NCBI GenBank assembly: GCA_022453515.1
Contig: JAJNNY010000063.1
Coordinates: forward strand, 141,189-205,188
Length of the DNA stretch: 64,000 nucleotides
Origin: Astrocystis sublimbata
Lineage: Eukaryota; Ascomycota; Sordariomycetes; Xylariales; Xylariaceae
Direction of reading: 5' to 3'
Positions 33,848 through 55,726 of this stretch are shown here, one piece after another (position 1 is the first letter of the stretch; each line of letters starts with the position of its first letter). The notes below the pieces were generated by a model that had not been told where the DNA came from, ran no database searches, and saw only the letters and a list, made by a program, of their open reading frames with translations. The position numbers and the translations under genes are program-made.

Positions 33848-33892
33848 TGGCGCGAGCCATTCCCTTTTATTCTTTACCCTTGGCGCGAGCCA
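33848..33892 (+). repeat. GNRA-hairpin array A (2 units, GCGA loop)
   Basis: TGGC-GCGA-GCCA occurs at 33848-33859 and 33881-33892, 33 nt apart. Each is a 4-bp stem closed by a GNRA-type tetraloop. It lies immediately 5' of tRNA-like element A. Confidence 0.7.
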
Positions 33893-33894
33893 AA

Positions 33895-33963
33895 GACCTT
33901 TTGACGCTCTCAGTGTCTAGTATCATTCTTTATTAAATATGGAGTTCGAATCTCTCGGAGGTC
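33895..33963 (+). ncRNA. tRNA-like cloverleaf element A
   Basis: 69 nt. The acceptor stem GACCTTT/GGAGGTC has 7 pairs (two G-U). The D-like stem is GACGC/GTGTC, the anticodon-like stem TAGTA/TATTA with an 8-nt loop, and the T-like arm GGAG-TTCGAAT-CTCT, with the pol III box-B-like GAGTTCGAATCTC. There is no convincing box A and the loop is not canonical, so it is not a normal tRNA. Stems agree in position with elements B and D although the sequences differ. Confidence 0.65.
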
Positions 33964-36351: not shown

Positions 36352-38719
36352 ATGGAGACACCGGAATCACTCCGTGTAGATCGGGATCAGCGCAAGCGTC
36401 GGTATCGCTTTGCCTGCACGCAGTGCAAGGCTCGTAAGATCAAATGTAGTGGCGACCAACCGGTATGTCGGGCTTGTCGGCGCTCGAACACATCCTGCCA
36501 CTGGCAGGAAGACCAGCTGCAGAATGCAACCTCGCGTATTCACGAGCTCGAGGCGGCGCTTCAACATGCTCAAGAAAGAGCCACGCCAAGATCAGATGGA
36601 GGCCGTCATGACAGTGCCAATGCCATATCACCAGCATCATCCGGGCAGCCTGCGCCCTTACCGCATGCGCCGCTCACATCGTCGTCGCTCTGGTTCCAGG
36701 TCGGGCTTTCAGATAAAGGCAATGTCACATATAACGGACCTTATAGTCGGTTTCACGCCGAAGCCCTTGAAGATGACGCCTCGCCTCCTGGCTTCTCCAG
36801 CGCAACCCGCGCTACTCACATAGAAGCCTTGCATTCGCAGTACAGATTGCTGGAGATGGTGTGGACACCTTTGATGGCTTCTCGGCCCAGGCTCGAGGGT
36901 GTTGATGATGCTGCCTGCACTGCTCTACTTGATGTTTTTTGGACGTGGATCCAGCCCTTACACAACTGGGTGTATCGGCCGTGTAAGTGGGCATTGCAGA
37001 CCTCGGTGCAGCACTGACAGTATTATATACACACAGGCTTCTTGGTCGACATGGCCATCAGCGGACCACATTACTCCGAATTTTTGCTCATGTGCATGCT
37101 TGCTCATTCGGCAAGAAAGGTGACGGAAATAGACATGGGAATCGACGGCCTTCTGAAAGGCGAGCAGTATCTGGCCCGTGCTAAAGAGCTCTTACTCGAA
37201 GAGATGTGTGCACCGAAGCCCCGAATACCTACAATACAGGGTTTATTGATTCTCGGTGGTCGCCAATGTGCTATTGGTAAGAGTTCTGAGGGGTGGCTGT
37301 ATACTGGCATGGTAATTATGTTTATCTCTCGTATTAGGTTCGAATGGCTGACGAACGCTTGATCAAGGCTATAAGAATGCTCATGGACATTGGTCTACAC
37401 CTCTATCTCGAGAACCCCAGGCTTGCAGAGCTCGAAAATCTGACGCCCGTCGAGCTCGAAGTGAGGAAGCGACTCTACAATTCGGCATTCGTCTGGGACA
37501 AGACCATAAGCCTGGGGCTTGGACGGCCCCCAGTCCTCTTATCACGACCTTATTCAAACTCCTCTATACGTATGTTTGACACAAAATCGCGACACGACGT
37601 GGAAGGCACTGATACTGATATCTTAGTTTAGTTGACGATCGCGACAATGCCCAAATGTGGATGCCAGTACATGCACCTGAGATCACCGAGCGATACAACC
37701 CGGCACCTTCCTATAATACTCTCACGTTTTGTGCGCATAGTCAGCTGCATGAGGTAAAGTGGACATGCCCTCATCACAACATTCATCAACCACTCTGACT
37801 CTGAGGATCTAGATAACCACCGAAATGATGTTGCTCTTCGCAAACGGTTCTCACGTCAACATTTCCTCTGCAGAGATACATTCTATAGGAGCTAAATTCG
37901 CCTCATGGTTTGCCAACTTGCCGGAAGAAATCAAAATCTTAGAGCCGTCTACCCTGATCCAAAGTCCACCTCCTCACATTGTGTCCATCAAGTACGTCAA
38001 TGAACATACCTTTCGCCACCCTCGTCCTCGTCACTAATAAACTCCCCAGCCTCGTCTACCACGCCTTGAACATCCTCCTCCATCGACCCCAGCTAAACTC
38101 TCCAAATGCTGACATCCAAGAGACGACCTCGAAGATCTGCACCTCACACTCAAAACATATCCACGACATCTTCTGCCTCTACAGTAGGACGTTTCCTCAC
38201 CGTATGATGACCTACCAGGTCAGCTACTGCATCTTCACCGCGGCGACGGTCGAAGTCGATGAAATGACGAGGGCGGATCAAGAAGCCGCGACGCAGGCAG
38301 CTCAGAGGCTGGGAATGGCCATCCGTGCCCTCGACGACGAGAGCAAGAACACACCCTCGATTGGAAGAAGTCTGGATACGATCCGACGCCGACTAGCGAC
38401 CAGGGTCTCCGCCACCAAACCTGCTGCTCAGCCAAGTCTTGCACGGGGCGATGCGTCAAATGGTGGGGTGGCGTCGGCTCAGCCAACAACATTACCGGCT
38501 GTTTTGGATGCCAACAACACGGCAGAGCACTCAAGTTTCGTAGATACAGTGTTAAGCCGGGATGAGACTCCCCAGGAGCCACCTCTGCTCAATTCATTAT
38601 CTACTAATACACTTGAGGAAATGAGCGGCTTCAGCAGAATCGACACGAATGCTGGATTTCACCCAGACGCATTTCCATGGAGACTATGGGATAATCCCGA
38701 TCAATTTTGGAATCTGTAA
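36352..38719 (+). CDS. Zn2Cys6 fungal transcription factor
   Basis: Six exons (36352-36982, 37037-37311, 37338-37569, 37632-37753, 37813-37991, 38050-38719) give 702 residues. The binuclear cluster CTQCKARKIKCSGDQPVCRACRRSNTSC is at about 22-49, followed by a short coiled-coil dimerisation segment (SRIHELEAALQHAQER). The fungal-specific middle homology region runs from LLDVFWTWIQPLHNWVYRPCFLVDMA through RRLLYNSAFVWDK-type sequence (here RKRLYNSAFVWDK). I chose ATG 36352 for its purine/-3, G/+4 context; an in-frame ATG at 36268 would add 28 residues. From base 37,288 or earlier the gene lies in the palindrome, so its 3' half is present twice. Its target genes are unknown. Confidence 0.88.
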
Positions 38720-38884
38720 AGTCCTAATAGTAGCTAGATGAGAGACATGAGATCTTAGTAATGGAATATCATCTCAACCTCATTGCGATTGATGAGATGA
38801 TCCGGTATAATTCGCAGAACAAGGATATGACTACCTCGCTCAACGTACTCATGCCTCACGTGTAGAAATAGAAGCACTAGATTA

Positions 38885-39033
38885 CATGTGGCACTGCAGA
38901 TGGTGTAATCCCAAGGTGAGAGCTGCTGCCAGTTCATACACTTCCTAGCATGAGTACCTAGCACCTGCCTACCTTACCTACCTACCAAAAGTAGAGACCT
39001 AGGCTACCACTTGACCTAGGCGGTTGCTCCTAC
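38885..39033 (+). repeat. Dispersed repeat R1, copy 1
   Basis: Blocks GTGGCACTGCAGAT, AATCCCAAGGTGAG, AGCATGAGTA, CCTACCTA and GACCTAGGC recur in the same order at 48453-48580. It sits about 220 bp upstream of the helicase ATG and may include its promoter. Confidence 0.7.
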
Positions 39034-39177
39034 CCAGATAGGAGGCAGGTATCCTTCGCGACTTCCTTGAGGCAGACATCTAGCACAGTCCGCACCTGTG
39101 GCTCCTTCATTTTCACATTCTCTGGCCCCTCTGCCTCTTTCCAACCACCTTAGATTTTACCTGTGTTTTTTGCCAGC

Positions 39178-39248
39178 AGCAACCACAACCACACAATCAC
39201 AACCACAACCACAGCAACAGCAACAGCAACAGCAACAGCACCATCATC
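39178..39248 (+). repeat. CA-rich repeat leader of the helicase gene
   Basis: CACAACCACAACCACA-type repeats pass into (CAACAG)n and end CACCATCATC directly before ATG 39249. It has the same position and composition as the leaders of the genes at 44703 and 46899. Confidence 0.7.
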
Positions 39249-41639
39249 ATGAACCAACTCAGTAAGAAGATGGAAACCCTCGCGGTAACCCTACCAGTGG
39301 AGGCCAGTCGCGAGGATTTCGTGCAGAAGTACGACAGCAGCTCAATTGTCGTAGTCACCGGTGGGACGGGATCAGAGAAAACCACCAAGATTCCTCAGTA
39401 CGTGCTGGAGCACCTCCTGCAACAGGACCCTGAGTCCAAGTTGAGGGTTGCTTGCACCCAGCCGCGAGTCGTGGCGGCAAAGGGCGTCGCCACAAGAGTG
39501 GCTAGCGAGGCCGAGAGTAAGAGGTCGTCACATCACGGTTCATCGGATCGCTTGCTAATACCTAGTCTGATATAAAGGGAACGTAGTCCTCGGCGAGGAG
39601 GTCGGATATCATGTCCGAAATGACAACAACACCGGCGAGAAAACCAGTCTCGTCTTCATGACCGATGGCATCCTGACAGCCCAGTTAAGGCGCGACCCAA
39701 CCTTGTCGAAATGTAGGTCAACTGAAGTCGATCCCTTCTCATTTATGCTGTCCGCAGTGTCAAAACTCTCTCATTTGCGACCGCAACATTTCTTATGAAT
39801 AGCTACTAACTGTGTGAAATCATAGATAAGTGCATTATTATCGACGAGGCGCATGAGAGAACGGTCAACACCGACATTCTTATGGCAAAGTTAAGAACCA
39901 TCGTGGCCGAGGGGAAGCGTCCGGACTTCAAGGTCGTCATCATGTCCGCAACTCTTGATGCGGAAAAGTTTCGGGCTTATTTCAACAATGCCCCTCTCTG
40001 CGAGATCGAGGGACGGACGTTCCCGGTCAAAATCAATTACTTGCAATCGGCAACAATCAAGGTCGCGGGCTCCATACTAGAAACTGTGCGATACATCCAC
40101 CGCGAGTTAGGTCCAGGCGACATCCTCATCTTCGTCGAAGGCATAAGTGAGATCCGTTGGCTGTGTCGTGAAATCGCCCTACTGAAGGAGACAGGACTCA
40201 TCCCCCTGCCACTGATTGCTAGCCTCCCCCCCGAAGACCAGGCCCAGGCGCTTGCTGGTGCTGACGACAGTACACGCAAATGCATCGTGTCAACTAATGT
40301 GGCTGAAACGAGCCTCACCATCAATCGGATTGTGTATGTCATTGATTCTGGTTTGGTTAAGGAGGCTCAGTGGAACCCGCGGTTGCGAACAAGAAGCTTG
40401 GTCAAGACGACGATCTCGCAAGCATCAGCCAATCATCGAAGTGGCCGGGCTGGGCGTACTTCGCCTGGAATCTGCTTTCGCTTGTATACGAAGGAGGCAT
40501 TCGAGTCTTTCCGGAAGTGGAATGCTCCCGGTATTGAGACCATCGACTTTACGCTTACATTGCTTCAGCTTATGGCAACTCGCGACTGGAAAGGCCTCGC
40601 TAGTGAAAATCTGATCACGATGCCGCGTGCCGAGGCTGTGAGGCAAGCACATCAAGATTTGGCTGACCTGTAAGTACTCCTAGTGTGGTTACAATGTCTT
40701 CCTGAAACGTTTTATCTCTGACTATCAACAATAGGGGATACTTCAATAAGAAAATAGAGCTTACATGGTCAGGGCTGGACGCCAGTAAGCTCAGCATAGC
40801 TCCTCTATGGGCACATGCCATTCAGCAGTCAGTTACCGCCCCGTCTCCCACAATGGAATCAACCAACATGTTCTCTATGCTAACACCGATTACCGATAAT
40901 TAGGGCTAGGCAATTCAAGGTGCAGACGTCCATTATCGGATTGGCTTCTATAGCCGACGAGGATTCGATGTTCATTGAGTCGGATTTGTATCAGGCTACG
41001 CTTCAGCACATACACGACCAATGGGCCGACCCATTCTCTGACCATATAGCCCAGTTGAATGCATTGAATGCATTCCTCGAAGTCAAGGAGAACAACCCAG
41101 GCTATGTGCCCATCTGGTGCAAAGACCATTTCCTCTCCCAACGGGTCTTAGAACGCATCTGCGCAACCCGCCAGCAACTTATATCACGACGCATTCGGGA
41201 TAAGAAGTGGACAGCCGAGCCGGAGTGGAGTGACGAAACAATTACCAACATCCGAAAAGCCTTGGCTCATGGTCTAATTCTCAATCTTGCCACGCGGAAT
41301 AGGAACATGGCATATAGGACCGTCCATCACAACCAGGAAGTCTTACCTGCACCCCGAAGCCGTGTGGAATGTGACCACCCCGGCGAACATGATTGGGTTG
41401 TGTATGACTATGTCCAAGCGGCGGCTCGTCCGTATATGATGACAGTTACTGTGATCGAGCCAGAATGGATCATGGTAAGGACCACCAGCCCCCTTCGCGC
41501 AATCATCTTGTAGCTCCCACTAATAAATTTCTAACAGAACCACCCCTACCTTTCGATCGAGCGAGCTCCTAAAAACTACTTCGGCGAGCCTGCTCAAAAG
41601 TTCATTCAAGAGAAGCTCGAAGCCCTCCGAAAAGCCTAG
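39249..41639 (+). CDS. Divergent DEAH-box RNA helicase with altered Walker A motif
   Basis: Six exons (39249-39516, 39578-39712, 39826-40669, 40735-40827, 40904-41474, 41538-41639) give 670 residues. Motifs in order: I GGTGSEKTTKIPQ (about 38-50), Ia TQPRVVAA, II DEAHERT (about 139), III MSATLD (about 172), V STNVAETSLT, VI QASANHRSGRAGRT (about 335-348). The winged-helix, ratchet and OB-like C-terminal regions are short and divergent compared with Prp43/Prp22, ending ERAPKNYFGEPAQKFIQE. In motif I, Glu replaces the Gly before Lys of the usual GSGKT, so ATP binding may be weakened. The rest looks intact. The gene sits in a CA-leader/hairpin/tRNA-like unit. Its mirror copy is at 59649-62039. 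Confidence 0.85.
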
Positions 41640-41674
41640 ATCTCGTCCCCAACCTACCACGACCCACCAATAAC

Positions 41675-41807
41675 TATTTGGTGAAAGCCACCACATAGTT
41701 ATCCTCTGCGGCGAAAGCTAAACCTATCTTTTCTCTGCGGCGAAAGCCAAAATACATCTTTTCTCTGCGGCGCAGGCCAAACACATCTATTCTCTGCGGC
41801 GAAAGCC
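41675..41807 (+). repeat. GNRA-hairpin array B (5 units, 29-30 nt period)
   Basis: Hairpins lie at 41679-41690 (TGGT-GAAA-GCCA), 41710, 41739 and 41798 (GGC-GAAA-GCY), and 41769 (GGC-GCAG-GCC). The period is 29-30 nt and the linkers begin CTCTGC. The T in TGGT pairs with G, a compensatory-type change. The array starts about 40 nt after the helicase stop codon. Confidence 0.75.
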
Positions 41808-41814
41808 ATTTTAA

Positions 41815-41884
41815 GACCTTCTGATGTTAATAGCATCTGGTATCATTCTATCAAGAGTGTAAGAGTTCGAATCTCTTGAAGGTC
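41815..41884 (+). ncRNA. tRNA-like cloverleaf element B
   Basis: 70 nt. Acceptor GACCTTC/GAAGGTC (7 perfect pairs), D-like GATG/CATC with 7-nt loop, anticodon-like TGGTA/TATCA with 6-nt loop, 7-nt variable region, T-arm AAGAG-TTCGAAT-CTCTT (5 perfect pairs). Box-B-like sequence is present, no clear box A. The 6-nt anticodon loop argues against a functional tRNA. It lies 7 nt after the last hairpin of array B. Confidence 0.75.
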
Positions 41885-44565
41885 AATAATATTGGGTTGG
41901 AGAACGTTGATTGGTATAAGTATCCCCCTTCTCACCTTGCTTGAAGGACTGACGATCTTGGTTTACTCAACCCCATTTCTTGGCCCGAGGTGACGCAAGC
42001 TACTGAAAATGTGTTGTACAGTCACCAGCATGTTAATCAGTAACAGCTCAGCGCGTCTATGGGGCTACTAGTGTTACGGATTCAACTGGTTTATAGGTGT
42101 AACATTGACTCCCTCCCTGCCTTGAGCGCCGTGCTGCCAGCCGTCGTCTGACTAACGAAGTTTGGGAGTCGATTGCGTCCCCCGGATCACAAGCTGAACA
42201 AATCCTGGACGACAATAATGGGCTATCCCCAGCCTATCGTCATTGTTCCCGCAACATCGTCAGCGCTTCACAGCAAGCCTGAATTTTGTGGCCCGATCGT
42301 AATATTGCCGGCCACGAGCGTTCTACTCCTCTGCCTTCTACTGAAAGAAACCCAACGATCGCCGAATCCGCTAACCTTCTACCCAATGGAAAATCCGGCG
42401 ATCATGTTTGTCCTTCCTACGACGTGCATAATTGCCGACCAATCGAGCGCATCAAGCGCCCTGTTAAGAGTGATACATGCCGAGGGACTGCCAACGTCAC
42501 CTCGCATCATTGAAGGACGGCAAGAACCACAGACATTTATACTAGATACCCCTCACTTTATTGAGAGTACCTGGAGCGAAAGCCAACATTTTGATTATCT
42601 ACGGTGGTAGCTATATGTATTCTGCCTGTAGTTACCTTATACTATCTCCTCCAAACCTAGTATGTGCTTTAGGAACTGGTCTGAACACTGACATCGCTAA
42701 TTTTGCATGGTGCGCCGCAATTACTATGAGTACGCCGGAGGAGAGAGCGTGGGGGTCCTGGACGGCTTCCCTCACCACACTGGGCATTTGGATGTGAACT
42801 TAAGTAATGCTGCCTTTTATACGAGCGCGTTACACAGTTCTAACGGATATACCGAACATGGGCGGCGATAGAAACAATACTGCTATCCTGATGGAAACTT
42901 GGAAATCGTGAAAGGCCGCTGGAACGAGATGAGTTTCCTCGAGTGGTCCTGGTGTTGCTAGCTACTGTCTTTGTCACTTGCAAGTTGCCACTGGTAATCA
43001 AAAGCCTGCTGCCTTGCAGCAATCATCCAGCAGTCGACGTGACCACTAGGGTCTACACATCAATCCATTACATTACTTTGGCCGGAAACTTCGAGAGTGT
43101 GTGATTGGTATTCGCCTGATTCAACAGGTTTTGGGGGTGGCATCCGAGTGTACACGCCCTTAGGTTTCACTGCCAAAGCATGGTGGTGCACACCTGTCAC
43201 GTATGAGGGTGCGTGATAGCTCATAGAAGTAAAGCTAGTGCAGCCTCTAGTAGGGAGCTCATAGACATAGATTCAGATGATCTCTAAGGTAACTTTCTAA
43301 GTGTACAAAAGGAACAGAAGGTAGGTATTTATAAGCGTAAGCGTATGGAATACTACCTAGGTAGTCACCTGATCGGATTACCTAAGGGACGTAGTATAGA
43401 TCCACTTCTCCGTGATAACACCGCTATCGAGCACCGACGTGAGGCGTGACTTCCCTCATCCGCGACTTCCTTCAACCTTCCAACAGCGCTCCCGATAAGC
43501 ACATTGCCGATGAGTAGCCGATATTGGGAGATAGGCGCACGGAAATAATTGAAGCACGCACAATTTGAGTCCGAGGCGGAAAACATTGCATCTTACCAGA
43601 TACCTACTCTGTGATCATCGTCAGCTCCACACGTAAAATCAATCAACGCACTGCTCACAAGCTACGCACCGCAGTCTTCAAACTTTTCAAACAATCTTCA
43701 ATTCCCGTAGTCCTTACAATGTCTCCCAAGCAGGTTTCCAAGAAATCTACCTCCGGCCCAAGTGGTCAGCCCTCCCTCTCTGCCAAGGGCAGAGTCCTAA
43801 AGTTGTAGAGGGTACCCGAATGAGCGAACGAGGGGGTTTGGGCTCTCAGATTCTCACGTCTCGAACTCAGGGCAAGGACGGGCAAATTCACGTCATACAT
43901 TCAAGTCTGTCTCCAAGTCCCGACTGTCTCCAGTCTGGTTTCTGCTAGCTCGCCCGGGAATCACGATTACCTAACTGCTTGGTTTATACAGCCCAATCCG
44001 GCCACTTTAACTTCGAAGTAGCACCGTAGCCCTCGCTATCATAATTCACAAACAAAACAAGCCTATTCTACGGTATCTCTTTGTATCGTGATACATCCGT
44101 AAGCAATCGTAGTTCCAGCTCATTTGTATTTCAGTTCGCATACAAAAGCGCTGCCCGAGAGATAGCTCGAGGAACAGGTTGAACAGGTTGATCAGAGCCC
44201 AATTGGCCCTCACACATGTGACTGGGCACTCTCCCAAGTGGCCTCGAGCAGTACTAGTACTACTGTATCATGGTCCTTGATTATAACGACCTTTTTACTA
44301 CGATGAGAACTGCAAATAGGCAAGTACCTAAGTACTTAGTGTGTAGGGTAGATAGGAGGTAGGTAAATTCCAAGGTTGGTAGTCGGATGCAACTGCCTTT
44401 CGAAACTCCTTGACTTACCTACATAGCTCCTGCCCGTAGTAGGCAAACACCCGTCTAGCCCAGTGCCTTCCTTACCTGACCTTAGGTAAGTGTTCTCAAA
44501 TTCTCTAGCCCCAGTGTCCTTCCCGTCTCTTCCTCTTTTTGACCACACCATCTTCTCACTTCTGC
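41885..44565. other. Gene-poor part of the arm with decayed coding-like DNA
   Basis: 2.7 kb. Around 42150-42610 two overlapping frames look partly protein-like but are interrupted and match no family I know. At 43719-43808 a 29-codon basic ORF (MSPKQVSKKSTSGPSG...) follows a leader-like CA/TC-rich stretch and could be a gene remnant. Repeat R3 (inverted) is at 43196-43294. The CA leader of the next gene begins at 44566. Confidence 0.4.
43196..43294 (-). repeat. Dispersed repeat R3, copy 2 (left arm)
   Basis: Reverse complement of the R3 blocks seen at 29300-29452 (AGATCATCTGAATC, TGTCTATGAGCTCCCT, AGAGGCTGCAC-like). Mirrored at 57994-58092. Confidence 0.6.
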
Positions 44566-44702
44566 CAACAACCGCAACCACAACCGCAACCACAACCACA
44601 ACCATAACCATAACAGCAATCGCAACCGCAACCGCAGTCGCAGTCACAGTCACAGCCACAATCACAATCAAAATCACAATCACAATCACTACCACCGCCA
44701 TC
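44566..44702 (+). repeat. CA-rich hexanucleotide leader of unknown gene C
   Basis: About 137 bp of CAACCG/CACAAC/CAGTCG/CACAAT hexamers end CACCGCCATC before ATG 44703. The tract is open in the frame of gene C back to an ATG at 44490, so an N-terminal Thr/Ala/Ile repeat extension is formally possible. Confidence 0.75.
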
Positions 44703-45498
44703 ATGTCGTTTGTTCCTGCCCCCCAGGATCTCGAAGCATACCTTGCAAATGGAACGACGTTCAGATTCAATTTAGGCAATTTGAGTCGCTATATTCCTCG
44801 GCGATATTTCGAGCAAGCCCTACAAGGTCTCCCATGCGGCCACGGTCGTGTGGTCGTCTACTGGCCCAAGTATTCGCCAAGGGTCACTGGAGAGGCACAT
44901 AGTGGCTGGTGCCACTTAATGTGTACGGAAGTCGAGCAGAAACGAGAGCTTATGAATCACCTCCGGGAGGTAAGCCTGGATCGTCATCAGGCACGAATCT
45001 GCAGTATAGACAAGGCGAGATACCCGATAGTATGTAACATCTTAACAACCTTAAGCTTTCAAAAATTTTTGCTTACATGTGTCGGGTTATCAGACTGAAT
45101 TCGCGCGAATCGTGCGAATTCAGATTACAGGCCAGCCTGCCGCCGCCTCGACCTCGACCTCAACCTCCACCGTCGCCCAGCCTGCCTCTCCTACCGCCAC
45201 CACTGCCGCCACCATTGCCCCTCCTACCGCCACCAATACCCCCTCCGCCCCTGCCAAGACCGCCCAGGCCGAGACTGCTCGCAGTCGTCAATCGGACCGG
45301 CTGCATGAAGAGCGTACCTGGTGTGAGGAAAATAGACGTCTCGGGGAACTATATCAAGAGATCCTGGACACCACCCCAGGATTGTCTCCGCTCTTCAAAG
45401 ACCTTCTCCGGAGATCGGTTAGATCATCTGCAATTGCAGACCATCTATGGGGCAATGCCTCAAACGCCAACCCCGCCACCGCTTCCCCTCAGCCCTAG
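44703..45498 (+). CDS. Unknown protein C
   Basis: Exons 44703-44969 and 45094-45498 flank a 124-nt intron and give 223 residues. No family is recognised. The N-terminal half is ordered-looking: MSFVPAPQDLEAYLANG, RYIPRRYFEQALQGLPCGHGRVVVYWPKY, GWCHLMCTEVEQKRELMNHLRE. It holds three Cys and one conserved-looking CGHGR. Exon 2 opens with an imperfect 29-bp palindrome (TEFARIVRIQ), then a Ser/Thr/Pro/Ala repeat linker (about 103-145) and a helical end (RTWCEENRRLGELYQEILD). The start at 44703 follows the shared leader layout. It is followed 63 nt later by hairpin array C. The mirror copy is at 55790-56585. Confidence 0.6.
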
Positions 45499-45561
45499 AT
45501 TTTATATTTCGATGAGCTGCCTCCTCCTCCTCCTCCTCCACCCTGCCATAGGTTAAAGTCC

Positions 45562-45764
45562 TTTCTCCTTGGCGCGAGCCATACCCTTCCACATATAATT
45601 TCTCCTCGGCGCGAGCCTTTCCCTTCACCTGTTCTTTCTCCTCGGCGCGAGCCATACCCTTCCACCTGTTCTTTCTCTTCGGCGCGAGCCTTTCCCTCCC
45701 ACGTATAATTTCTCCTCCGCGCGAGCCTCTCCCTCCCACATATAATTTCTCCTCCGCGCGAGCC
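45562..45764 (+). repeat. GNRA-hairpin array C (6 units, 36-37 nt period)
   Basis: GGC-GCGA-GCC occurs at 45571, 45608, 45644 and 45681, and the variant CGC-GCGA-GCC at 45718 and 45755. Spacing is 37, 36, 37, 37 and 37. Units begin TTTCTCCT and end in CATATAATT or CACCTGTTC. After the last unit comes GACCTA at 45775, where the other loci start a cloverleaf, but no T-arm follows. Confidence 0.75.
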
Positions 45765-46811
45765 ACCCGGGTTAGACCTAGGATGCTATATTAGCAACTA
45801 GTAATCTAATGATTTATTCTAGTATGCTGGCTAGATGGATCGTACAACATCAAGCACCTTGACGTGGTGTACATACGGGCTTACGGATGAGCGAAGGCCA
45901 GTGTCTGCGCTGTCGCCGTGCCATCTACAAAGACTTGATGATTCAGCATAATTAGAGCAATAGTCAACCGCGAAGGTGTGTAATGAGATACAATGGTTTG
46001 TTCCGCTAGCCTGTGTTGATGCTATATCAAAACCATGACATGCAATGGCATTAAAAATCAAGGCAACGATGCTACTGCCCAGAAACTAGATGTCTTAAGT
46101 GATAAGGTTCTGATAGGTTTACCTAGGTACCTCTAAGGTGTTATAGGGTCGACAGCAGCTGCATTGGCGAGCTAGGCGAAAGGTCGGGACTTCTTTGCCT
46201 CAAGCATGGACATATTCATTTGGAAGTACTTCAAGCTTGTGTGAGCCTCACTTGAACGCATGGTACCTGATCCCAAGACAGCCCTGATACTACATTCGAG
46301 GTTGTACCAGTTGTAACCAGGTGTATTGCAGCCAAGATAGCATGCAGTTTGACCTCTTGATTGATGATAACGGGCATACCTAATACGCTCATACTAGCTA
46401 CATATAGGTAGGGAAGTCATATTGTTAAGGCATGCAACTGGACCCAAGCCATCGCATCACATAGCAACCCAGCCGAACGCAACACAGCCAGCGCACACAC
46501 TACCTACCATGTAGGTAAGTACCTACTTAAGGTATCACCTAGTGCTACTCCCAGCATCAACACCAGCACCACCACCACTGTCAGGGCTCGCATACCGCGA
46601 AGGATCTCGTATTACTGCAAGGGTAGTGCTACAAATGGTTGTTGGGAGACCTGGATCTGTATTCTGTGTCTCCGAGGAAAAGAAGGAAGGAAAACAAGGG
46701 TCGAGCCCAAGGGTCCGGAAGTTTTGTAATTTACCTACCTAGGTAGGTAGTAGGTAGGTCACTTTAGGCGACGTAGCCTGGCCGGCTCCTGCCTTCCAAG
46801 TGATGCCTGCC
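45765..46811. other. Intergenic region with repeat R2
   Basis: No gene is supported. It contains R2 (46581-46800) just before the leader of gene D, and several TAGGTACCTA-type words. Confidence 0.5.
46581..46800 (+). repeat. Dispersed repeat R2, copy 2 (promoter region of gene D)
   Basis: Matches 33338-33533 in ordered blocks. Ends with GACGTAGCCTGGCCGGC about 100 bp before ATG 46899. Mirrored at 54488-54707. Confidence 0.65.
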
Positions 46812-46898
46812 CCCACAACCACCACCACCAGCACCAACACCACCAACACCAACACCAACACCAACACCAATACCACCATTACCACCACCGTCGTCGAT
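46812..46898 (+). repeat. CA-rich leader of unknown gene D
   Basis: (CAACAC)n and CACCAC repeats end GTCGTCGAT before ATG 46899. The repeat is open in frame from an ATG at 46803, which would add 32 Thr/Asn-rich residues. Confidence 0.7.
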
Positions 46899-47979
46899 AT
46901 GGCTGAAAACATGACGACCGCTGACCCCTCCTCGATCCCCGCAACTCAGGTAAGTGCGTAACACTTCTTTGGCGAAGACCAGCTTTAAGAAACGGTGAAA
47001 GGCTCCAGATCCGGGCACCGAGGGTGTCAATTGGGACGAGGTAGTCGAATCTGACGACGATTTCGCATATGAGATGCACAAGATTCCGGATGACTGGCTC
47101 CCTGATCCAAACGATCCACAAGTAGCCGTAGACAACATGTTCCGGTACTACGAGCGCCTCGATAAGCATTACACCAAAAGAGGCTACAAGCCACGCTTTC
47201 GACTGTGGTCAGAGGGGGGTGAGAAAACAAAGGGCTTCCACTGCATCCATCGACCAGCTCCTAGATCCGGGAATGACAAGTATATCGAGCAGGAGCTGGT
47301 CTACATGTTCAAGACCAAGGAGGATGGCAAGCGAGAGTACAAGCTCTTCCCTTTCGCTGAAGCAGAAGCCGGCATACTCACAAAAACGGAGGTATGGCAG
47401 CTCTGGCGACCCAAACCGCCCCCACTCGACAACAAAGGCAGAGATATACGCTCTTGCAATCGCCTAGAAGATAGCCGAATAAGGGACAAACCTCACCTCG
47501 ATTCCAATTATTATTTCACCAGGGAAGACAATATCCCATTCATGCTAAAGCATTGCGCGCCAGCAGGATGGAAACCTGGCGAGCCACTCGAAGCCAAGGA
47601 TACATACAAGGACGAAGACAACATTTCGACAATCGAGCAATTCCGGCCCCCTAACCAGTCGGACAATTTGATAACGGGCTCCAACAGTTGCCTCATCAGA
47701 AAAACACAAGCTCCTCCTGGCATCGGGGCTGATTGGGGAGACTACCACTTATTCGACCAGTGGCAGGCGCATGGGCGCAAGATTAAGCTCGACATGGTTG
47801 AGGATAAGAAGTGGGATAAGACGCTCGACAAGATAGTATTCGTCTCGGATGACGACCCGACAGACATCACGGCCATCAAGATTGGGGATGATATCAAAGA
47901 GAGAGCCGGATACGATCCCGAGAACCCCCCGATGACTCTGCGAGAACACCTGCTGGCAAAAATGGACAAGCGAGATTAA
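46899..47979 (+). CDS. Unknown protein D
   Basis: Exons 46899-46949 and 47002-47979 flank a 52-nt intron (GTAAGT...GAAAG) and give 342 residues. Starting at 46803 instead gives 374. I chose 46899 because the repeat upstream matches the leaders of the other two unit genes. No family is recognised. It is a soluble, charged protein rich in Asp, Lys, Trp and Tyr: DDWLPDPNDPQVAVDNMFRYYERLDKHY, KYIEQELVYMFKTKEDGKREYKLFPFAEAEAG, EVWQLWRPKPPPLDNKGRDIRSC, GADWGDYHLFDQWQAHGRKIKLDMV. No signal peptide or membrane segment is seen. The array of hairpins starts 65 nt after the stop. The mirror copy is at 53309-54389. Confidence 0.65.
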
Positions 47980-48043
47980 GCCGTCAAGTGAAAGTGATCA
48001 TGGTGCATAGTTGAGGCTCTCTTCTATTTGATAGAAAACATCC

Positions 48044-48147
48044 GTTCCCTGCGGCGAAAGCTAAAACATCCATTCTCTGCGGCGAAAGCTAACATACTTA
48101 TTCTCTGCGGCGAAAGCTAACGTATCTATTCTCTGCGGCGAAAGCCA
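48044..48147 (+). repeat. GNRA-hairpin array D (4 units, exact 28-nt period)
   Basis: GGC-GAAA-GCT at 48053, 48081 and 48109 and GGC-GAAA-GCC at 48137, exactly 28 nt apart, each preceded by CTCTGC or CCCTGC. Confidence 0.78.
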
Positions 48148-48155
48148 TGTTTTAA

Positions 48156-48224
48156 GACCTTTGCTGTTTTATCGCAGCTGGCAATGTTCAACTTGAACAT
48201 AAGGGTTCGAGTCCCTTGAAGGTC
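48156..48224 (+). ncRNA. tRNA-like cloverleaf element D
   Basis: 69 nt. Acceptor GACCTTT/GAAGGTC (7 pairs, one U-G), D-like GCTG/CAGC with 8-nt loop, anticodon-like TGTTC/GAACA, T-arm AAGGG-TTCGAGT-CCCTT (5 perfect pairs). If the anticodon stem is trimmed to 4 bp, the 7-nt loop CAACTTG is tRNA-like. No convincing box A. It lies 9 nt after array D. Confidence 0.75.
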
Positions 48225-48670
48225 CAAATATTATACCACTTTCGAACGAGTTTGGCGGATGTTGGGTTTGATATGCTCGATGAGTGTTACTTCATACAAG
48301 GTTCGTGTCTCCTATCATGGTCTCAATTGTGTTTGCCAGTTCAGCATTCTAACATCGAACGCTGAACTATACTTCTAAACTGCTTGTCCTCCGTCCTCTC
48401 CAACTGGTCCTTCGTGCAAGCCTGCAAGCGTCTAGTAGAGTCAGCTCTGCCGATGTGGCACTGCAGATTGTGCAATCCCAAGGTGAGCTATTGCCAATCC
48501 ACACACCTCCCAGCATGAGTATCTAGTACCTACCTATCTAAAGCAGGTACCTAAGGTACTACCCGACCTAGGCCGTTACTATATTGGTATGTCGGTTGAG
48601 TAGCTCATTCCATAAAGTTTCACTTCTCTTCTCAGACACCCCCTTCGTTATTAACTCAGAACTTAATCTC
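48225..48670. other. Intergenic region with repeat R1 copy 2
   Basis: R1 lies at 48453-48580. No gene is seen before the minus-strand pseudogene. Confidence 0.5.
48453..48580 (+). repeat. Dispersed repeat R1, copy 2 (left arm)
   Basis: Same ordered blocks as 38885-39033. Here no plus-strand gene follows. Mirrored at 52708-52835. Confidence 0.7.
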
Positions 48671-49351
48671 TCAAACCTGCGTTTGCAACAGTAACTCGTT
48701 CACCTCGTACAGGTCTACTGCAGGCGAAGTTCCCTCGGTGCGGTACTTGCTTCCACCAGCGGCGGCCCACTCGTGCCGCACATTGGCGGTCTTCGAGACG
48801 AAAGTGTACCACAGGGTGACCTTGGAGTCTTCGCTACCGTCTAAGGGCGCACACTCGGAGTAGGCAGTAGCGTCGGGGTTGTATGTGTAACTGCAAGAGA
48901 CATCGAAGGCCGGCGCATCACGCGTGTAACCCGCCGGGGCGCTCAGCTCAAACTTCACGCCAAAAGGAAGATCCGGCCGATCGGGGTTGGGGAGGTTCGA
49001 GGCAGCGACGGCAGACCAGGTGCCGAAAGTACCAACCAAACCCGGCACCTTCTCCAACTTCTCGTCGACCGACAGCGGGGCCGCGTCGATGGGGCGGCTG
49101 TTCCTGTCAGGCACGGAAGGGAGCTGCCCCGAAGCAGTGGTGACCCTCCTGATTCCGTCATCGTGGAGCCACGTGTGGTCGACAGTGATGGCGTAATCGC
49201 GGCTTGTGGAGGTGCAAGCTTGCGGTCTATCGAAGGGAGCTTCTCAATGGACGTCGAACGCTAGAGTGCCTGGGATGTAATCAGCCTTGACGCTCATCTC
49301 GAACTTTGTGCCCGTCGTGATGACGCCATGGGTGTCTGACAATTCCGACAT
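48671..49351 (-). pseudogene. Duplicated-domain protein gene with stop at a conserved Cys (left copy)
   Basis: 227 codons read from ATG 49351 to TAA/TGA at 48671, with one internal TGA at 49246-49244. Two related modules are visible: GTKFEMSVKADYIPGTLAFDVH-stop...ACTS and GVKFELSAPAGYTRDAPAFDVSCSYTYNPDATAYSECAP. The stop falls where the second module has Cys. The Cys pairs and Phe-x-Val pattern recall small secreted fungal proteins, but no signal peptide is found upstream and the assignment is weak. A frame upstream to 49763 may be a frameshifted N-terminus. The identical mirror copy, stop included, is at 51937-52617. Confidence 0.5.
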
Positions 49352-49763
49352 CTTCGGCCACCTAGGAGTCGATCGCCAGGGCCGTTCGCTGCAATGTTGG
49401 GGCGGCGGTAGCTACGCTGGCAAATGCGCTGAGGGAGGTTGTCACGGTTCGCTCACCGCCCAATCGCCACCCTTTTTCGTTCTCTTGCTGACGCTTCTCC
49501 GGACGACTCCTATGATGCTGGGTGATGCCAGCGACCTGATGGCGATCTTGGCGTGGGTCCATCCCTTCTGGGAAGCGGCAGAACAAGAGGCCGGCGATGA
49601 GGGCTCGCCACCCCATCTCCCCCCGGTGCACGTCTACTCGGCTGATTTTCGCCGCTCGGTCGCCGAGCTTGGTCTCGACCTCGCTCTGTCTTTCGAGAAC
49701 GTGGAGAAGCAGGTGCGCAAAGACCGAAGCGCCTCCGCCCCAGGTGATAACGTTGGATCGCAT

Positions 49764-50437
49764 GTTGACGAGCGTTAGTTACGTTTGAGGAACTAGTATG
49801 GCAGTCGATTGGAAATTGGGGAGTGTTGGATCGTGATGCCCTATTGTTGCTCTTCTGTTGAACCCACGGGATGTCACCTTGATTTGTACTTTTTGAATCT
49901 TGCACTCAGAGTCGATGTCGGCCTCTCTACCTCGTTCATGTCATCTGTATATTATGCTTAAATGTTTGCCCTGGAGGGTATCAAGGATGCTTGTAATACC
50001 CATGATGTCCTTCTTCCCTTGTTGCTTCGCGTTAGAGTGCGGCCTGCTTATGCCAGCGTAACGAACAGACGTTGTCAAGGTTATGAAGAGTTCTTATATC
50101 GAAGACATATAATAATAATTCTTTTCTAAAGATAGGTACGTGATCGGATCGGCTTTACCATCTATTCAGTAAGCACTTTGGTTGTAGTGAAGTATAAGGT
50201 ATATGAGCGTATTATTCAGTTGAGTAACTAGAATCTATAGAAAGATGATCGGTGGGAAGGACCTTGTTATGTACATGATGAGCCCGTGACAGTGTAGTGA
50301 CCCCTTGACCTAACACCACTTCAACAGGTTGATTGAAATCAAGGACAAATAACTAATACAGCTTCCTAAGGTTGAATGAACCTAGTCTCACTAGTAGCTT
50401 GGGGCCGTGGGACACGGGTGCGAGATGAGGCGCCACG
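49764..50437. other. Non-coding flank of palindrome centre (left)
   Basis: No supported gene or RNA. It becomes AT-rich toward the centre. Confidence 0.5.
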
Positions 50438-50439
50438 CA

Positions 50440-50848
50440 AAATAGATGAGACGGTCTTTCAAAACTTCTAAGTTGGCACATCGTATGAAAAATACTCCCT
50501 TAAGCCTAGAATAACTCCTATAGAACCAAGAAACTACCTTTAAATAATCATAATATAATCAAGTAATAAATAAATATTAAATAATAAACTATATCTATTT
50601 CTAGTTATTAATAAGTTATATACTTACTTAAGTATAACTTTTTTAAAAAGTTATACTTAAGTAAGTATATAACTTATTAATAACTAGAAATAGATATAGT
50701 TTATTATTTAATATTTATTTATTACTTGATTATATTATGATTATTTAAAGGTAGTTTCTTGGTTCTATAGGAGTTATTCTAGGCTTAAGGGAGTATTTTT
50801 CATACGATGTGCCAACTTAGAAGTTTTGAAAGACCGTCTCATCTATTT
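50440..50848. repeat. AT-rich palindrome core, symmetry axis at 50644
   Basis: The axis reads AGTATAAC-TTTTT-T-AAAAA-GTTATACT, with the single T at 50644 unpaired. The inner 200 bp are nearly pure AT. The sequence could form a perfect hairpin with no loop to speak of. Confidence 0.95.
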
Positions 50849-50849
50849 T

Positions 50850-51936
50850 GCGTGGCGCCTCATCTCGCACCCGTGTCCCACGGCCCCAAGCTACTAGTGA
50901 GACTAGGTTCATTCAACCTTAGGAAGCTGTATTAGTTATTTGTCCTTGATTTCAATCAACCTGTTGAAGTGGTGTTAGGTCAAGGGGTCACTACACTGTC
51001 ACGGGCTCATCATGTACATAACAAGGTCCTTCCCACCGATCATCTTTCTATAGATTCTAGTTACTCAACTGAATAATACGCTCATATACCTTATACTTCA
51101 CTACAACCAAAGTGCTTACTGAATAGATGGTAAAGCCGATCCGATCACGTACCTATCTTTAGAAAAGAATTATTATTATATGTCTTCGATATAAGAACTC
51201 TTCATAACCTTGACAACGTCTGTTCGTTACGCTGGCATAAGCAGGCCGCACTCTAACGCGAAGCAACAAGGGAAGAAGGACATCATGGGTATTACAAGCA
51301 TCCTTGATACCCTCCAGGGCAAACATTTAAGCATAATATACAGATGACATGAACGAGGTAGAGAGGCCGACATCGACTCTGAGTGCAAGATTCAAAAAGT
51401 ACAAATCAAGGTGACATCCCGTGGGTTCAACAGAAGAGCAACAATAGGGCATCACGATCCAACACTCCCCAATTTCCAATCGACTGCCATACTAGTTCCT
51501 CAAACGTAACTAACGCTCGTCAACATGCGATCCAACGTTATCACCTGGGGCGGAGGCGCTTCGGTCTTTGCGCACCTGCTTCTCCACGTTCTCGAAAGAC
51601 AGAGCGAGGTCGAGACCAAGCTCGGCGACCGAGCGGCGAAAATCAGCCGAGTAGACGTGCACCGGGGGGAGATGGGGTGGCGAGCCCTCATCGCCGGCCT
51701 CTTGTTCTGCCGCTTCCCAGAAGGGATGGACCCACGCCAAGATCGCCATCAGGTCGCTGGCATCACCCAGCATCATAGGAGTCGTCCGGAGAAGCGTCAG
51801 CAAGAGAACGAAAAAGGGTGGCGATTGGGCGGTGAGCGAACCGTGACAACCTCCCTCAGCGCATTTGCCAGCGTAGCTACCGCCGCCCCAACATTGCAGC
51901 GAACGGCCCTGGCGATCGACTCCTAGGTGGCCGAAG
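50850..51936. other. Non-coding flank of palindrome centre (right)
   Basis: Mirror of the left flank. A plus-strand frame at 51525-51926 may be a frameshifted N-terminus of the following pseudogene. Confidence 0.4.
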
Positions 51937-52617
51937 ATGTCGGAATTGTCAGACACCCATGGCGTCATCACGACGGGCACAAAGTTCGAGATGAGCGTCA
52001 AGGCTGATTACATCCCAGGCACTCTAGCGTTCGACGTCCATTGAGAAGCTCCCTTCGATAGACCGCAAGCTTGCACCTCCACAAGCCGCGATTACGCCAT
52101 CACTGTCGACCACACGTGGCTCCACGATGACGGAATCAGGAGGGTCACCACTGCTTCGGGGCAGCTCCCTTCCGTGCCTGACAGGAACAGCCGCCCCATC
52201 GACGCGGCCCCGCTGTCGGTCGACGAGAAGTTGGAGAAGGTGCCGGGTTTGGTTGGTACTTTCGGCACCTGGTCTGCCGTCGCTGCCTCGAACCTCCCCA
52301 ACCCCGATCGGCCGGATCTTCCTTTTGGCGTGAAGTTTGAGCTGAGCGCCCCGGCGGGTTACACGCGTGATGCGCCGGCCTTCGATGTCTCTTGCAGTTA
52401 CACATACAACCCCGACGCTACTGCCTACTCCGAGTGTGCGCCCTTAGACGGTAGCGAAGACTCCAAGGTCACCCTGTGGTACACTTTCGTCTCGAAGACC
52501 GCCAATGTGCGGCACGAGTGGGCCGCCGCTGGTGGAAGCAAGTACCGCACCGAGGGAACTTCGCCTGCAGTAGACCTGTACGAGGTGAACGAGTTACTGT
52601 TGCAAACGCAGGTTTGA
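51937..52617 (+). pseudogene. Duplicated-domain protein gene with stop at a conserved Cys (right copy)
   Basis: Mirror of 48671-49351. The internal TGA is at 52042-52044. It is identical in both arms, so the stop predates the duplication, or both are one locus read twice. Confidence 0.5.
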
Positions 52618-52707
52618 GAGATTAAGTTCTGAGTTAATAACGAAGGGGGTGTCTGAGAAGAGAAGTGAAACTTTATGGAATGAGCTACTCAACCGACATA
52701 CCAATAT

Positions 52708-52835
52708 AGTAACGGCCTAGGTCGGGTAGTACCTTAGGTACCTGCTTTAGATAGGTAGGTACTAGATACTCATGCTGGGAGGTGTGTGGATTGGCAATAG
52801 CTCACCTTGGGATTGCACAATCTGCAGTGCCACAT
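52708..52835 (-). repeat. Dispersed repeat R1, mirror copy
   Basis: Reverse complement of 48453-48580. Confidence 0.7.
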
Positions 52836-53063
52836 CGGCAGAGCTGACTCTACTAGACGCTTGCAGGCTTGCACGAAGGACCAGTTGGAGAGGACGGAGG
52901 ACAAGCAGTTTAGAAGTATAGTTCAGCGTTCGATGTTAGAATGCTGAACTGGCAAACACAATTGAGACCATGATAGGAGACACGAACCTTGTATGAAGTA
53001 ACACTCATCGAGCATATCAAACCCAACATCCGCCAAACTCGTTCGAAAGTGGTATAATATTTG

Positions 53064-53132
53064 GACCTTCAAGGGACTCGAACCCTTATGTTCAAGTTGA
53101 ACATTGCCAGCTGCGATAAAACAGCAAAGGTC
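53064..53132 (-). ncRNA. tRNA-like element D, mirror copy
   Basis: Reverse complement of 48156-48224; same stems. Confidence 0.75.
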
Positions 53133-53140
53133 TTAAAACA

Positions 53141-53244
53141 TGGCTTTCGCCGCAGAGAATAGATACGTTAGCTTTCGCCGCAGAGAATAAGTATGTTAGC
53201 TTTCGCCGCAGAGAATGGATGTTTTAGCTTTCGCCGCAGGGAAC
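53141..53244 (-). repeat. GNRA-hairpin array D, mirror copy
   Basis: Four GGC-GAAA-GCY hairpins at 28-nt period on the minus strand. Confidence 0.78.
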
Positions 53245-53308
53245 GGATGTTTTCTATCAAATAGAAGAGAGCCTCAACTATGCACCATGATCACTTTCAC
53301 TTGACGGC

Positions 53309-54389
53309 TTAATCTCGCTTGTCCATTTTTGCCAGCAGGTGTTCTCGCAGAGTCATCGGGGGGTTCTCGGGATCGTATCCGGCTCTCTCTTTGATATCAT
53401 CCCCAATCTTGATGGCCGTGATGTCTGTCGGGTCGTCATCCGAGACGAATACTATCTTGTCGAGCGTCTTATCCCACTTCTTATCCTCAACCATGTCGAG
53501 CTTAATCTTGCGCCCATGCGCCTGCCACTGGTCGAATAAGTGGTAGTCTCCCCAATCAGCCCCGATGCCAGGAGGAGCTTGTGTTTTTCTGATGAGGCAA
53601 CTGTTGGAGCCCGTTATCAAATTGTCCGACTGGTTAGGGGGCCGGAATTGCTCGATTGTCGAAATGTTGTCTTCGTCCTTGTATGTATCCTTGGCTTCGA
53701 GTGGCTCGCCAGGTTTCCATCCTGCTGGCGCGCAATGCTTTAGCATGAATGGGATATTGTCTTCCCTGGTGAAATAATAATTGGAATCGAGGTGAGGTTT
53801 GTCCCTTATTCGGCTATCTTCTAGGCGATTGCAAGAGCGTATATCTCTGCCTTTGTTGTCGAGTGGGGGCGGTTTGGGTCGCCAGAGCTGCCATACCTCC
53901 GTTTTTGTGAGTATGCCGGCTTCTGCTTCAGCGAAAGGGAAGAGCTTGTACTCTCGCTTGCCATCCTCCTTGGTCTTGAACATGTAGACCAGCTCCTGCT
54001 CGATATACTTGTCATTCCCGGATCTAGGAGCTGGTCGATGGATGCAGTGGAAGCCCTTTGTTTTCTCACCCCCCTCTGACCACAGTCGAAAGCGTGGCTT
54101 GTAGCCTCTTTTGGTGTAATGCTTATCGAGGCGCTCGTAGTACCGGAACATGTTGTCTACGGCTACTTGTGGATCGTTTGGATCAGGGAGCCAGTCATCC
54201 GGAATCTTGTGCATCTCATATGCGAAATCGTCGTCAGATTCGACTACCTCGTCCCAATTGACACCCTCGGTGCCCGGATCTGGAGCCTTTCACCGTTTCT
54301 TAAAGCTGGTCTTCGCCAAAGAAGTGTTACGCACTTACCTGAGTTGCGGGGATCGAGGAGGGGTCAGCGGTCGTCATGTTTTCAGCCAT
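53309..54389 (-). CDS. Unknown protein D, mirror copy
   Basis: Exons 54389-54339 and 54286-53309; identical 342-residue product to the gene at 46899-47979. The CA-rich leader is at 54390-54476 and R2 at 54488-54707. Confidence 0.65.
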
Positions 54390-54476
54390 ATCGACGACGG
54401 TGGTGGTAATGGTGGTATTGGTGTTGGTGTTGGTGTTGGTGTTGGTGGTGTTGGTGCTGGTGGTGGTGGTTGTGGG
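54390..54476 (-). repeat. CA-rich leader of gene D, mirror copy
   Basis: Reverse complement of 46812-46898. Confidence 0.7.
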
Positions 54477-54487
54477 GGCAGGCATCA

Positions 54488-54707
54488 CTTGGAAGGCAGG
54501 AGCCGGCCAGGCTACGTCGCCTAAAGTGACCTACCTACTACCTACCTAGGTAGGTAAATTACAAAACTTCCGGACCCTTGGGCTCGACCCTTGTTTTCCT
54601 TCCTTCTTTTCCTCGGAGACACAGAATACAGATCCAGGTCTCCCAACAACCATTTGTAGCACTACCCTTGCAGTAATACGAGATCCTTCGCGGTATGCGA
54701 GCCCTGA
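54488..54707 (-). repeat. Dispersed repeat R2, mirror copy
   Basis: Reverse complement of 46581-46800. Confidence 0.65.
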
Positions 54708-55523
54708 CAGTGGTGGTGGTGCTGGTGTTGATGCTGGGAGTAGCACTAGGTGATACCTTAAGTAGGTACTTACCTACATGGTAGGTAGTGTGTGCGCTGG
54801 CTGTGTTGCGTTCGGCTGGGTTGCTATGTGATGCGATGGCTTGGGTCCAGTTGCATGCCTTAACAATATGACTTCCCTACCTATATGTAGCTAGTATGAG
54901 CGTATTAGGTATGCCCGTTATCATCAATCAAGAGGTCAAACTGCATGCTATCTTGGCTGCAATACACCTGGTTACAACTGGTACAACCTCGAATGTAGTA
55001 TCAGGGCTGTCTTGGGATCAGGTACCATGCGTTCAAGTGAGGCTCACACAAGCTTGAAGTACTTCCAAATGAATATGTCCATGCTTGAGGCAAAGAAGTC
55101 CCGACCTTTCGCCTAGCTCGCCAATGCAGCTGCTGTCGACCCTATAACACCTTAGAGGTACCTAGGTAAACCTATCAGAACCTTATCACTTAAGACATCT
55201 AGTTTCTGGGCAGTAGCATCGTTGCCTTGATTTTTAATGCCATTGCATGTCATGGTTTTGATATAGCATCAACACAGGCTAGCGGAACAAACCATTGTAT
55301 CTCATTACACACCTTCGCGGTTGACTATTGCTCTAATTATGCTGAATCATCAAGTCTTTGTAGATGGCACGGCGACAGCGCAGACACTGGCCTTCGCTCA
55401 TCCGTAAGCCCGTATGTACACCACGTCAAGGTGCTTGATGTTGTACGATCCATCTAGCCAGCATACTAGAATAAATCATTAGATTACTAGTTGCTAATAT
55501 AGCATCCTAGGTCTAACCCGGGT
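54708..55523. other. Intergenic region (mirror)
   Basis: No supported gene; mirror of 45765-46580. Confidence 0.5.
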
Positions 55524-55726
55524 GGCTCGCGCGGAGGAGAAATTATATGTGGGAGGGAGAGGCTCGCGCGGAGGAGAAATTATACGTGGGAGGGAAAGGC
55601 TCGCGCCGAAGAGAAAGAACAGGTGGAAGGGTATGGCTCGCGCCGAGGAGAAAGAACAGGTGAAGGGAAAGGCTCGCGCCGAGGAGAAATTATATGTGGA
55701 AGGGTATGGCTCGCGCCAAGGAGAAA
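55524..55726 (-). repeat. GNRA-hairpin array C, mirror copy
   Basis: Six hairpins with GCGA loop. On the plus strand the array also reads as a spurious ORF starting MARAEEK. Confidence 0.75.

Follow-up and report, generated by a model that had tools for sequence, protein, structure and literature searches.

Hairpin arrays and tRNA-like structures downstream of unrelated genes at one locus of Astrocystis sublimbata

Why should genes that share no protein sequence be framed by the same kinds of sequence on both sides? This question is raised by a 64,000-nucleotide stretch of Astrocystis sublimbata DNA (hereafter the window; C150:141189-205188), which reaches the end of a 205-kb contig in an assembly of 42.6 Mb and 189 contigs. 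Within it, a DEAH-box helicase gene (39249..41639) and two genes that we call C (44703..45498) and D (46899..47979) are each preceded by a CA-rich leader and followed by a tandem array of tiny hairpins, mostly with GNRA loops; behind the helicase gene and gene D, the array is followed by a tRNA-like cloverleaf structure (TLS). The genes lie on the forward strand, and leaders, arrays and TLS are all on the gene strand. A first-pass annotation of the sequence had described this layout and suggested either a gene-carrying mobile unit or a common RNA-processing system. A common RNA system appears plausible, in view of compensatory change in the TLS and of a 3' element of gene C that is conserved far above the coding sequence; the mobile unit fared worse, as set out below. 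Because positions 37288-64000 form a perfect inverted repeat, the mirror copies found at 53-60 kb carry no independent information. All counts therefore exclude them unless stated otherwise, and the unique part of the window is 1-50644.

The cloverleafs claimed for two of the three genes were confirmed. The minimum-free-energy folds of both the helicase TLS (41815..41884) and the gene D TLS (48156..48224) are cloverleafs with four arms (z-scores of -3.65 and -3.43, with 0 and 1 of 200 shuffles as good). The former has a 7-bp acceptor stem, D, anticodon and T arms of 5 bp each and the T loop UUCGAAU; the T loop of the latter is UUCGAGU. A third copy, which was not part of the earlier finding, lies at 33895..33963 behind a short array, and we refer to this array and TLS (33848-33963) as U0. 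Taken alone, the U0 TLS gives no cloverleaf at minimum free energy (z -1.22). In our own structural alignment of 22 pairs in three TLS, 63 of the 66 cells hold standard pairs, all three misses being in U0; pairs have changed on both sides in five cases and on one side in six. The gene D and helicase TLS differ at 10 stem positions and keep all 22 pairs, a result reached by none of 20,000 random placements; U0 has 12 stem changes and keeps 19 of the 22 pairs, which only 0.2% of 20,000 random placements equal. As judged from these aligned copies, the TLS shows compensatory change: letters have changed and base pairs have been kept. Searching 149,410 bases at E<=10 with a covariance model of the three copies brought no further strong match beyond the mirrors: among the 20 matches, the three copies and two mirrors have E<=2.7e-19. 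The other 15 are weak (E 0.043-3.9) and comprise single array hairpins with their mirrors, part of the gene D intron (46964-47007) together with its mirror, and a place in another locus (L049).

Gene C has no TLS homologous in sequence, and its 3' end is conserved in a different way. A branched 3' element (45766..45888, core 45817-45888) that is not related to the TLS by sequence recurs at C2, a paralog at C150:83710, about 100 kb from gene C, which also has a CA tract. The core is identical at 67 of 71 positions (94%), and in the two-sequence consensus fold of the element, closed by CCCG/CGGG, both partners have changed in 3 of the 40 pairs, of which two belong to the first hairpin, while no pair is broken. 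The coding sequences share 70% identity across the first 109 codons and 62% across 191, with a synonymous difference of 0.66-0.68, a synonymous divergence (dS) of about 1.6-1.75 and a ratio of nonsynonymous to synonymous divergence (dN/dS) of 0.13-0.20. Gapped global alignment gives 72% for the intron and 73% for the 300 nt upstream, figures that are inflated by gaps. Because the core is so well kept beside saturated synonymous sites, this comparison implies that strong selection must act on it, the alternative being gene conversion confined to these bases. Elsewhere the element was sought and found only at gene C, its mirror and C2. It can be aligned by eye as a degenerate TLS; since shuffled sequences do equally well, we rejected this as homology and kept it as a different conserved element.

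Arrays of tiny hairpins after the stop codons were likewise borne out. The helicase array (41679..41808) has five units, four of them with a GNRA loop (GAAA); the gene C array (45560..45767) has six, four with a GNRA loop (GCGA) and at least 3 bp; all four units of the gene D array (48035..48147) have GNRA loops (GAAA); and the U0 array (33848..33893) consists of two units with GCGA loops. Tandem Repeats Finder (TRF) counts 3.7, 5.5 and 4.0 copies for the helicase gene, C and D, respectively. Altogether 14 GNRA hairpins have at least 3 bp (U0 2, helicase 4, C 4, D 4), and stems are 3-5 bp long. By reading, the units without the GNRA pattern are one in the helicase array and the last two of six in that of gene C. 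The first GNRA hairpin begins 39, 71 and 73 nt after the stop codons of the helicase gene, C and D; repeat units begin somewhat earlier, so that the spacing of 36-65 nt first given is about right. Between the last hairpin and the TLS of the helicase gene and gene D, we read a short linker with TTTTAA. When the two 3' regions are compared by BLAST, similarity begins in the array and continues for no more than 8-9 nt behind the TLS, which is what a module closed by the TLS would show.

Is this combination special to the locus, or have unrelated tandem repeats and pseudo-tRNAs come together by coincidence in a repeat-rich contig end? Of 24 genome matches to a pattern of two GNRA hairpins 14-40 nt apart, 15 belong to the cluster or its mirror and 9 lie outside, and a reversed control also gave 9. 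Since matches outside the cluster occur at the control rate, the arrays are, by this pattern, a local feature. A two-ended pattern was matched in the genome by U0, the helicase gene and gene D, by two mirrors and by two other places, and its control had 4 matches; the two other places have no match to the covariance model. BLAST of the genome with the helicase and gene D array and TLS (E<=10) returned only each other and the mirrors; it missed U0, and diverged copies are possible. Besides matches at near-control rate, these searches placed array and TLS patterns only in one stretch of about 15 kb in the 42.6-Mb genome. Coincidence would fit the stretch upstream of gene D and U0, a dispersed repeat for which other contigs hold 10 more listed places, as well as the existence of four other tRNA-like stretches without arrays. 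The earlier annotation had held that arrays and cloverleafs unlinked to open reading frames (ORFs) or leaders would make the unit a coincidence of neighbouring repeats. U0, which has no leader ORF, is partly such a case. Against coincidence, which we regard as decidedly improbable, stand the control-rate occurrence of arrays outside the contig and the need for selection to account for three TLS with compensatory changes and for the C/C2 core (or gene conversion, for the core).

The CA-rich tracts before the start codons of all three genes were confirmed as well (39170-39249, 44555-44636 and 46801-46895). We required at least 48 nt at 85% A+C or more, in a sample made up of the unique window (50,644 bases) and 22 other loci of the same genome (82,158 bases; L015 and loci overlapping these or the window are excluded). 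Nine tracts were found, seven in the unique window and two in the other loci, and four of the nine are the leaders of the helicase gene, C, D and C2. Two further tracts of the window are inside an ORF (16861-18696); those of the other loci are a CA microsatellite (L051) and the C2 leader tract, which ends 57 nt before the ATG. CA tracts are therefore uncommon elsewhere in the sampled sequence. The helicase leader (39170..39248) ends at the ATG and has an ACAGCA period of 6 at 39211-39240 (TRF); that of gene C (44555..44702) continues beyond the threshold tract as hexamers to 44695 (TRF), with the ATG at 44703; and the gene D leader is at 46801..46898. A public model of gene D (P0001) starts upstream and translates the CA tract as Thr/Asn repeats, and the Xylaria flabelliformis relative of D begins at the later ATG. 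C3, a second paralog of gene C, has a weaker A+C-rich leader, below threshold.

That the three genes have no common protein sequence also stands, the best cross-match among them having E 6.3. The helicase gene encodes 667 amino acids, with five predicted GT-AG introns and the Pfam domains DEAD, Helicase_C and OB. Its closest relative among the matches listed (the best 120 of 8000 scored candidates) is a Xylaria arbuscula protein (55%), and no public A. sublimbata protein of its own is found among these 120. Walker A reads GGTGSEKT and motif VI HRSGRAGR, against GATGSGKT and QRAGRAGR in the X. arbuscula protein: a conserved Walker A glycine is replaced (GSEKT), as is the first residue of motif VI, where the relative is standard. 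Since both motifs deviate from the X. arbuscula residues, ATPase function appears doubtful. Gene C encodes 243 amino acids in our model, with one predicted intron; a public model (P0004) is spliced differently and has 223. A protein search with gene C finds only its own public model and C2, and a genome search adds C3 at 42%. Between the helicase TLS and gene C, positions 42184-42336 match the C-terminal part of gene C weakly (33%, E 0.01), possibly a decayed relative or a chance match. Gene D (342 amino acids, one predicted intron) has two relatives at E<=0.001 besides itself, in Xylaria flabelliformis (57%) and one more (43%), and a genome search gave no paralog. Neither C nor D matches a Pfam family above cut-off, and the mean predicted local distance difference test (pLDDT) scores of their predicted structures, 48.8 and 39.5, respectively, are too low for a fold search.

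The same frame round three unrelated ORFs is what would be expected of a mobile gene cassette or a segmented RNA replicon with common ends round different genes, and the frame resembles the segments of a multi-part RNA virus. We nevertheless hold this explanation to be scarcely probable at all. All three ORFs have predicted GT-AG introns; the Pfam domains of the helicase are all of helicase type, and C and D have none above cut-off; and a Pfam scan of these genes together with seven ORFs near them found no reverse transcriptase or viral replication domain. Searches of IMG/VR with D and C found no relatives of these two genes. Two single exact matches to the repeat motif in that database were judged to be chance for a 17-mer in such a large collection. 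The target-site duplications that the earlier annotation wished to see sought were not apparent: in 60-nt flanks of six intervals, none is clear round units or 3' modules, the longest shared words are 5-8 nt, and 4.5% of random pairs do as well as the best (8 nt, at the gene C unit). With no dispersed copies found, array and TLS located only in the stretch of about 15 kb, C2 showing eroded hairpins (two units by reading, some 600 nt after the stop) and C3 lacking the module, the idea of a gene-carrying mobile unit is not supported.

A tRNA origin deserves closer attention. That the TLS is an independent tRNA-derived element (an RNA polymerase III gene or the head of a short interspersed element, SINE) which chances to follow the arrays is, together with an uncleaved 3' untranslated region (UTR), one of the two main rivals, and we consider it unlikely. 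ARAGORN finds no tRNA in the window; the Rfam tRNA model (RF00005) gives 19.3 bits for the helicase TLS and 12.4 for that of gene D, both below the cut-off of 29, and U0 has no tRNA match within larger window scans. The mascRNA-menRNA model (RF01684) matches the gene D T arm only, with 12.9 bits against a cut-off of 42.5, and nothing in the window at gathering. No A-box was recognised by reading the TLS, and a run of at least four T within 45 nt 3' of the TLS is present in one of the three copies (U0). Moreover, all three TLS directly follow arrays, and the combination was not found elsewhere. In favour of such an origin, the gene D T arm holds GGTTCGANTCC, a perfect match to the B-box consensus, and a 22-nt T-arm/acceptor pattern (up to 3 mismatches) has 35 matches in the genome, five of them at this locus (three copies and two mirrors), against 8 in a reversed control. 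The genome thus has further tRNA-like stretches whose 3' halves closely resemble that of the TLS.

Four of the other 30 matches were read (L074-L077; C111:3141, C36:25161, C115:237011 and C57:282774). They are tRNA-like stretches with a B-box-like T arm and an acceptor-like 3' end, and three of the four have GGCCGG at the presumed 5' start, a further point for a tRNA-derived element, and T-runs after them. In the 351-501 bases read of each there is no tandem array, and ARAGORN and Rfam at gathering are empty. Judged by these resemblances, stretches of this type suggest where the TLS could have come from. We rejected C111:3141 as a further unit: it has one mismatch to the T-arm pattern, but no array and no confident cloverleaf (z -0.33), and it is adjacent to coding-looking ORFs on the other strand (7 kb). 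As for tRNA-like charging, it is unlikely, since the D loop of the TLS lacks the GG typical of tRNAs and the anticodon loops differ among the copies.

We are thus largely confident, from the patterns of sequence change described above, that the structures are constrained by selection as RNA, and we infer that the module is rather probably part of the upstream gene's transcript. Our favoured reading builds on this. The module would sit in the transcript of the preceding gene, and the stack of acceptor and T arm (7+5, i.e., 12 bp), with its canonical T loop (UUCGAAU or UUCGAGU), would lead RNase P to cut on the 5' side and RNase Z on the 3' side. The product would be an mRNA without poly(A), ending after the hairpin array; the hairpins would shield this end or serve as a protein-binding site, with the CA leader favouring initiation. 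Copies would have arisen through local duplication of the 3' module and not through dispersal as a mobile element. The idea of an RNase P substrate comes from the TLS shape and from analogy with MALAT1/NEAT1 and tRNA-like sites in human mRNAs. On these grounds we regard cleavage of the TLS by tRNA-processing enzymes as possible but open to considerable doubt, and the whole chain, a structured mRNA 3' end with a TLS cut by such enzymes, as more tentative still.

An alternative with a modest chance of being right is that these are structured 3' UTRs of ordinary polyadenylated mRNAs, whose arrays and TLS bind proteins in stability, localisation or translation control and are not cleaved. The location on the strand of the genes, with first hairpins 39-73 nt after the stops, fits a 3' UTR, as do the constraint on structure in the C/C2 element and the TLS and the way in which loops vary (GAAA in the helicase gene and D, GCGA in C and U0) and yet stay GNRA. 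Such a UTR leaves unexplained why the full acceptor/T-arm stack and the canonical T loop are retained and why helicase/D similarity ends close to the TLS.

Several observations weigh against cleavage of a shared module. The TLS is known in three copies from one genome. U0 has no leader ORF, the nearest upstream ORF (MFS-like) ending at 33110, and a weak 35-nt similarity between U0 and gene D runs past the TLS. In the 908 nt behind the stop codon of C3 there is no array and no TLS. Array stems are for the most part just 3 bp long, and folds of whole regions (including the TLS for the helicase gene, D and U0) give z-scores of 0.05 for C, -1.40 for U0, -1.95 for D and -2.72 for the helicase gene; by this folding model the C region as a whole is no better than shuffles. 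Although the gene C element taken alone folds better than most shuffles (z -2.77), that of C2 does not (z -0.90). In comparisons with the three TLS, the score of the C element is equalled by 45-140 of 300 shuffles and that of the C2 element by 13-137. Finally, no MALAT1-type triple-helix motif was seen upstream of the TLS by reading, no dedicated search having been made.

What would follow if cleavage were real? The tRNA-processing route would be extended to natural protein-coding mRNA 3' ends in another kingdom, and the export and translation of mRNA without poly(A) would come into question. A whole class of fungal nuclear mRNAs without poly(A), in which tRNA enzymes form the 3' end, a GNRA array protects it and a CA-repeat leader serves translation, is a speculative extension that we think quite unlikely. 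Even as a 3' UTR motif only, one structured 3' module common to unrelated genes would be unusual.

The setting of the locus calls for some further remarks. The domains seen in the left part of the window are those of an ordinary chromosome (HET, PARG, short-chain and 2-oxoacid dehydrogenases, Sec7, cyclase and MFS). The inverted repeat (37288..64000; 26.7 kb), also beyond the earlier finding, is centred at 50644 and extends to the contig end; its arms of 13,356 bp have zero mismatches and a single central base, and its centre is in A+T-rich sequence. Because a perfect fold-back ends at the contig end, it is probably an assembly artefact. Neither TTAGGGTTAGGG nor its complement occurs exactly in the window (64 kb).

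A dispersed repeat of about 220 bases (TGTCAGGGCTCG ... CTCCTGCC) is present at 46579-46812 and 33336-33545, and one copy stops near the start of the CA leader of gene D. Besides gene D's copy and its mirror, the matches listed comprise 10 places on other contigs, with identities of 71-78%; the U0 copy comes from a separate BLAST comparison. Five scanned loci of this repeat have no Rfam match at gathering. The upstream similarity of D and U0 was considered as a shared 5' frame and rejected, being two copies of this repeat. Similarly rejected was CTCCTRCC as a promoter motif common to all four units; for D and U0 it belongs to the repeat, and the corresponding place in the 10 other copies reads CTCCTGCC in nine and CTCCTACC in one (L046), the place in L047 being judged by distance. 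Two other repeats touch the region: 38886-39028, upstream of the helicase gene, recurs at 48453-48580 after gene D (74% identical), the only match besides itself and mirrors in a genome search, and 29324-29451 recurs in opposite orientation at 43195-43314 (77% identical).

How does the locus compare with known systems? The 3' ends of vertebrate MALAT1 and NEAT1 (mascRNA and menRNA) have a tRNA-like structure downstream of a transcribed gene, of which our locus shows the structure, and serve as our analogy for RNase P at such a structure (PMC12941219). MALAT1 and NEAT1 are long non-coding RNAs in which a triple helix precedes the cut site, whereas here the genes are fungal and protein-coding, the arrays have GNRA hairpins, and both cleavage and transcription with the gene are putative. 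In human liver, mRNAs with tRNA-like features such as IFNA5 are cut by RNase P in vitro according to the abstract of PMC4565877; they share with our genes a cloverleaf-like structure in a protein-coding mRNA and RNase P as the proposed enzyme, and that abstract mentions neither a hairpin array nor a CA leader. Among the open-licence papers listed by our searches, we found no description of tRNA-like 3' ends on fungal mRNAs, an absence that is no proof, and nothing on SINEs of Xylariales. tRNA genes and tRNA-derived SINEs have the T arm and B-box-like sequence in common with the TLS, which differs in scoring below tRNA model cut-offs, in having no recognised A-box and in lacking dispersed array and TLS copies in our searches. 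The Mauriceville retroplasmid of Neurospora is also fungal, but is a mitochondrial plasmid that encodes its own reverse transcriptase, a domain not met in the genes and ORFs scanned here. Tobamovirus RNA has a CAA leader, a pseudoknot domain and a tRNA-like 3' end. It is an RNA virus genome, whereas our genes are chromosomal, have predicted introns and show no viral domain; what the two share is the order of a CA-rich leader, an ORF, a row of small structures and a tRNA-like end. By this analogy, mRNAs of the class considered above would be, in what we see as an equally unlikely extension, a cellular counterpart of the tobamovirus layout across unrelated genes.

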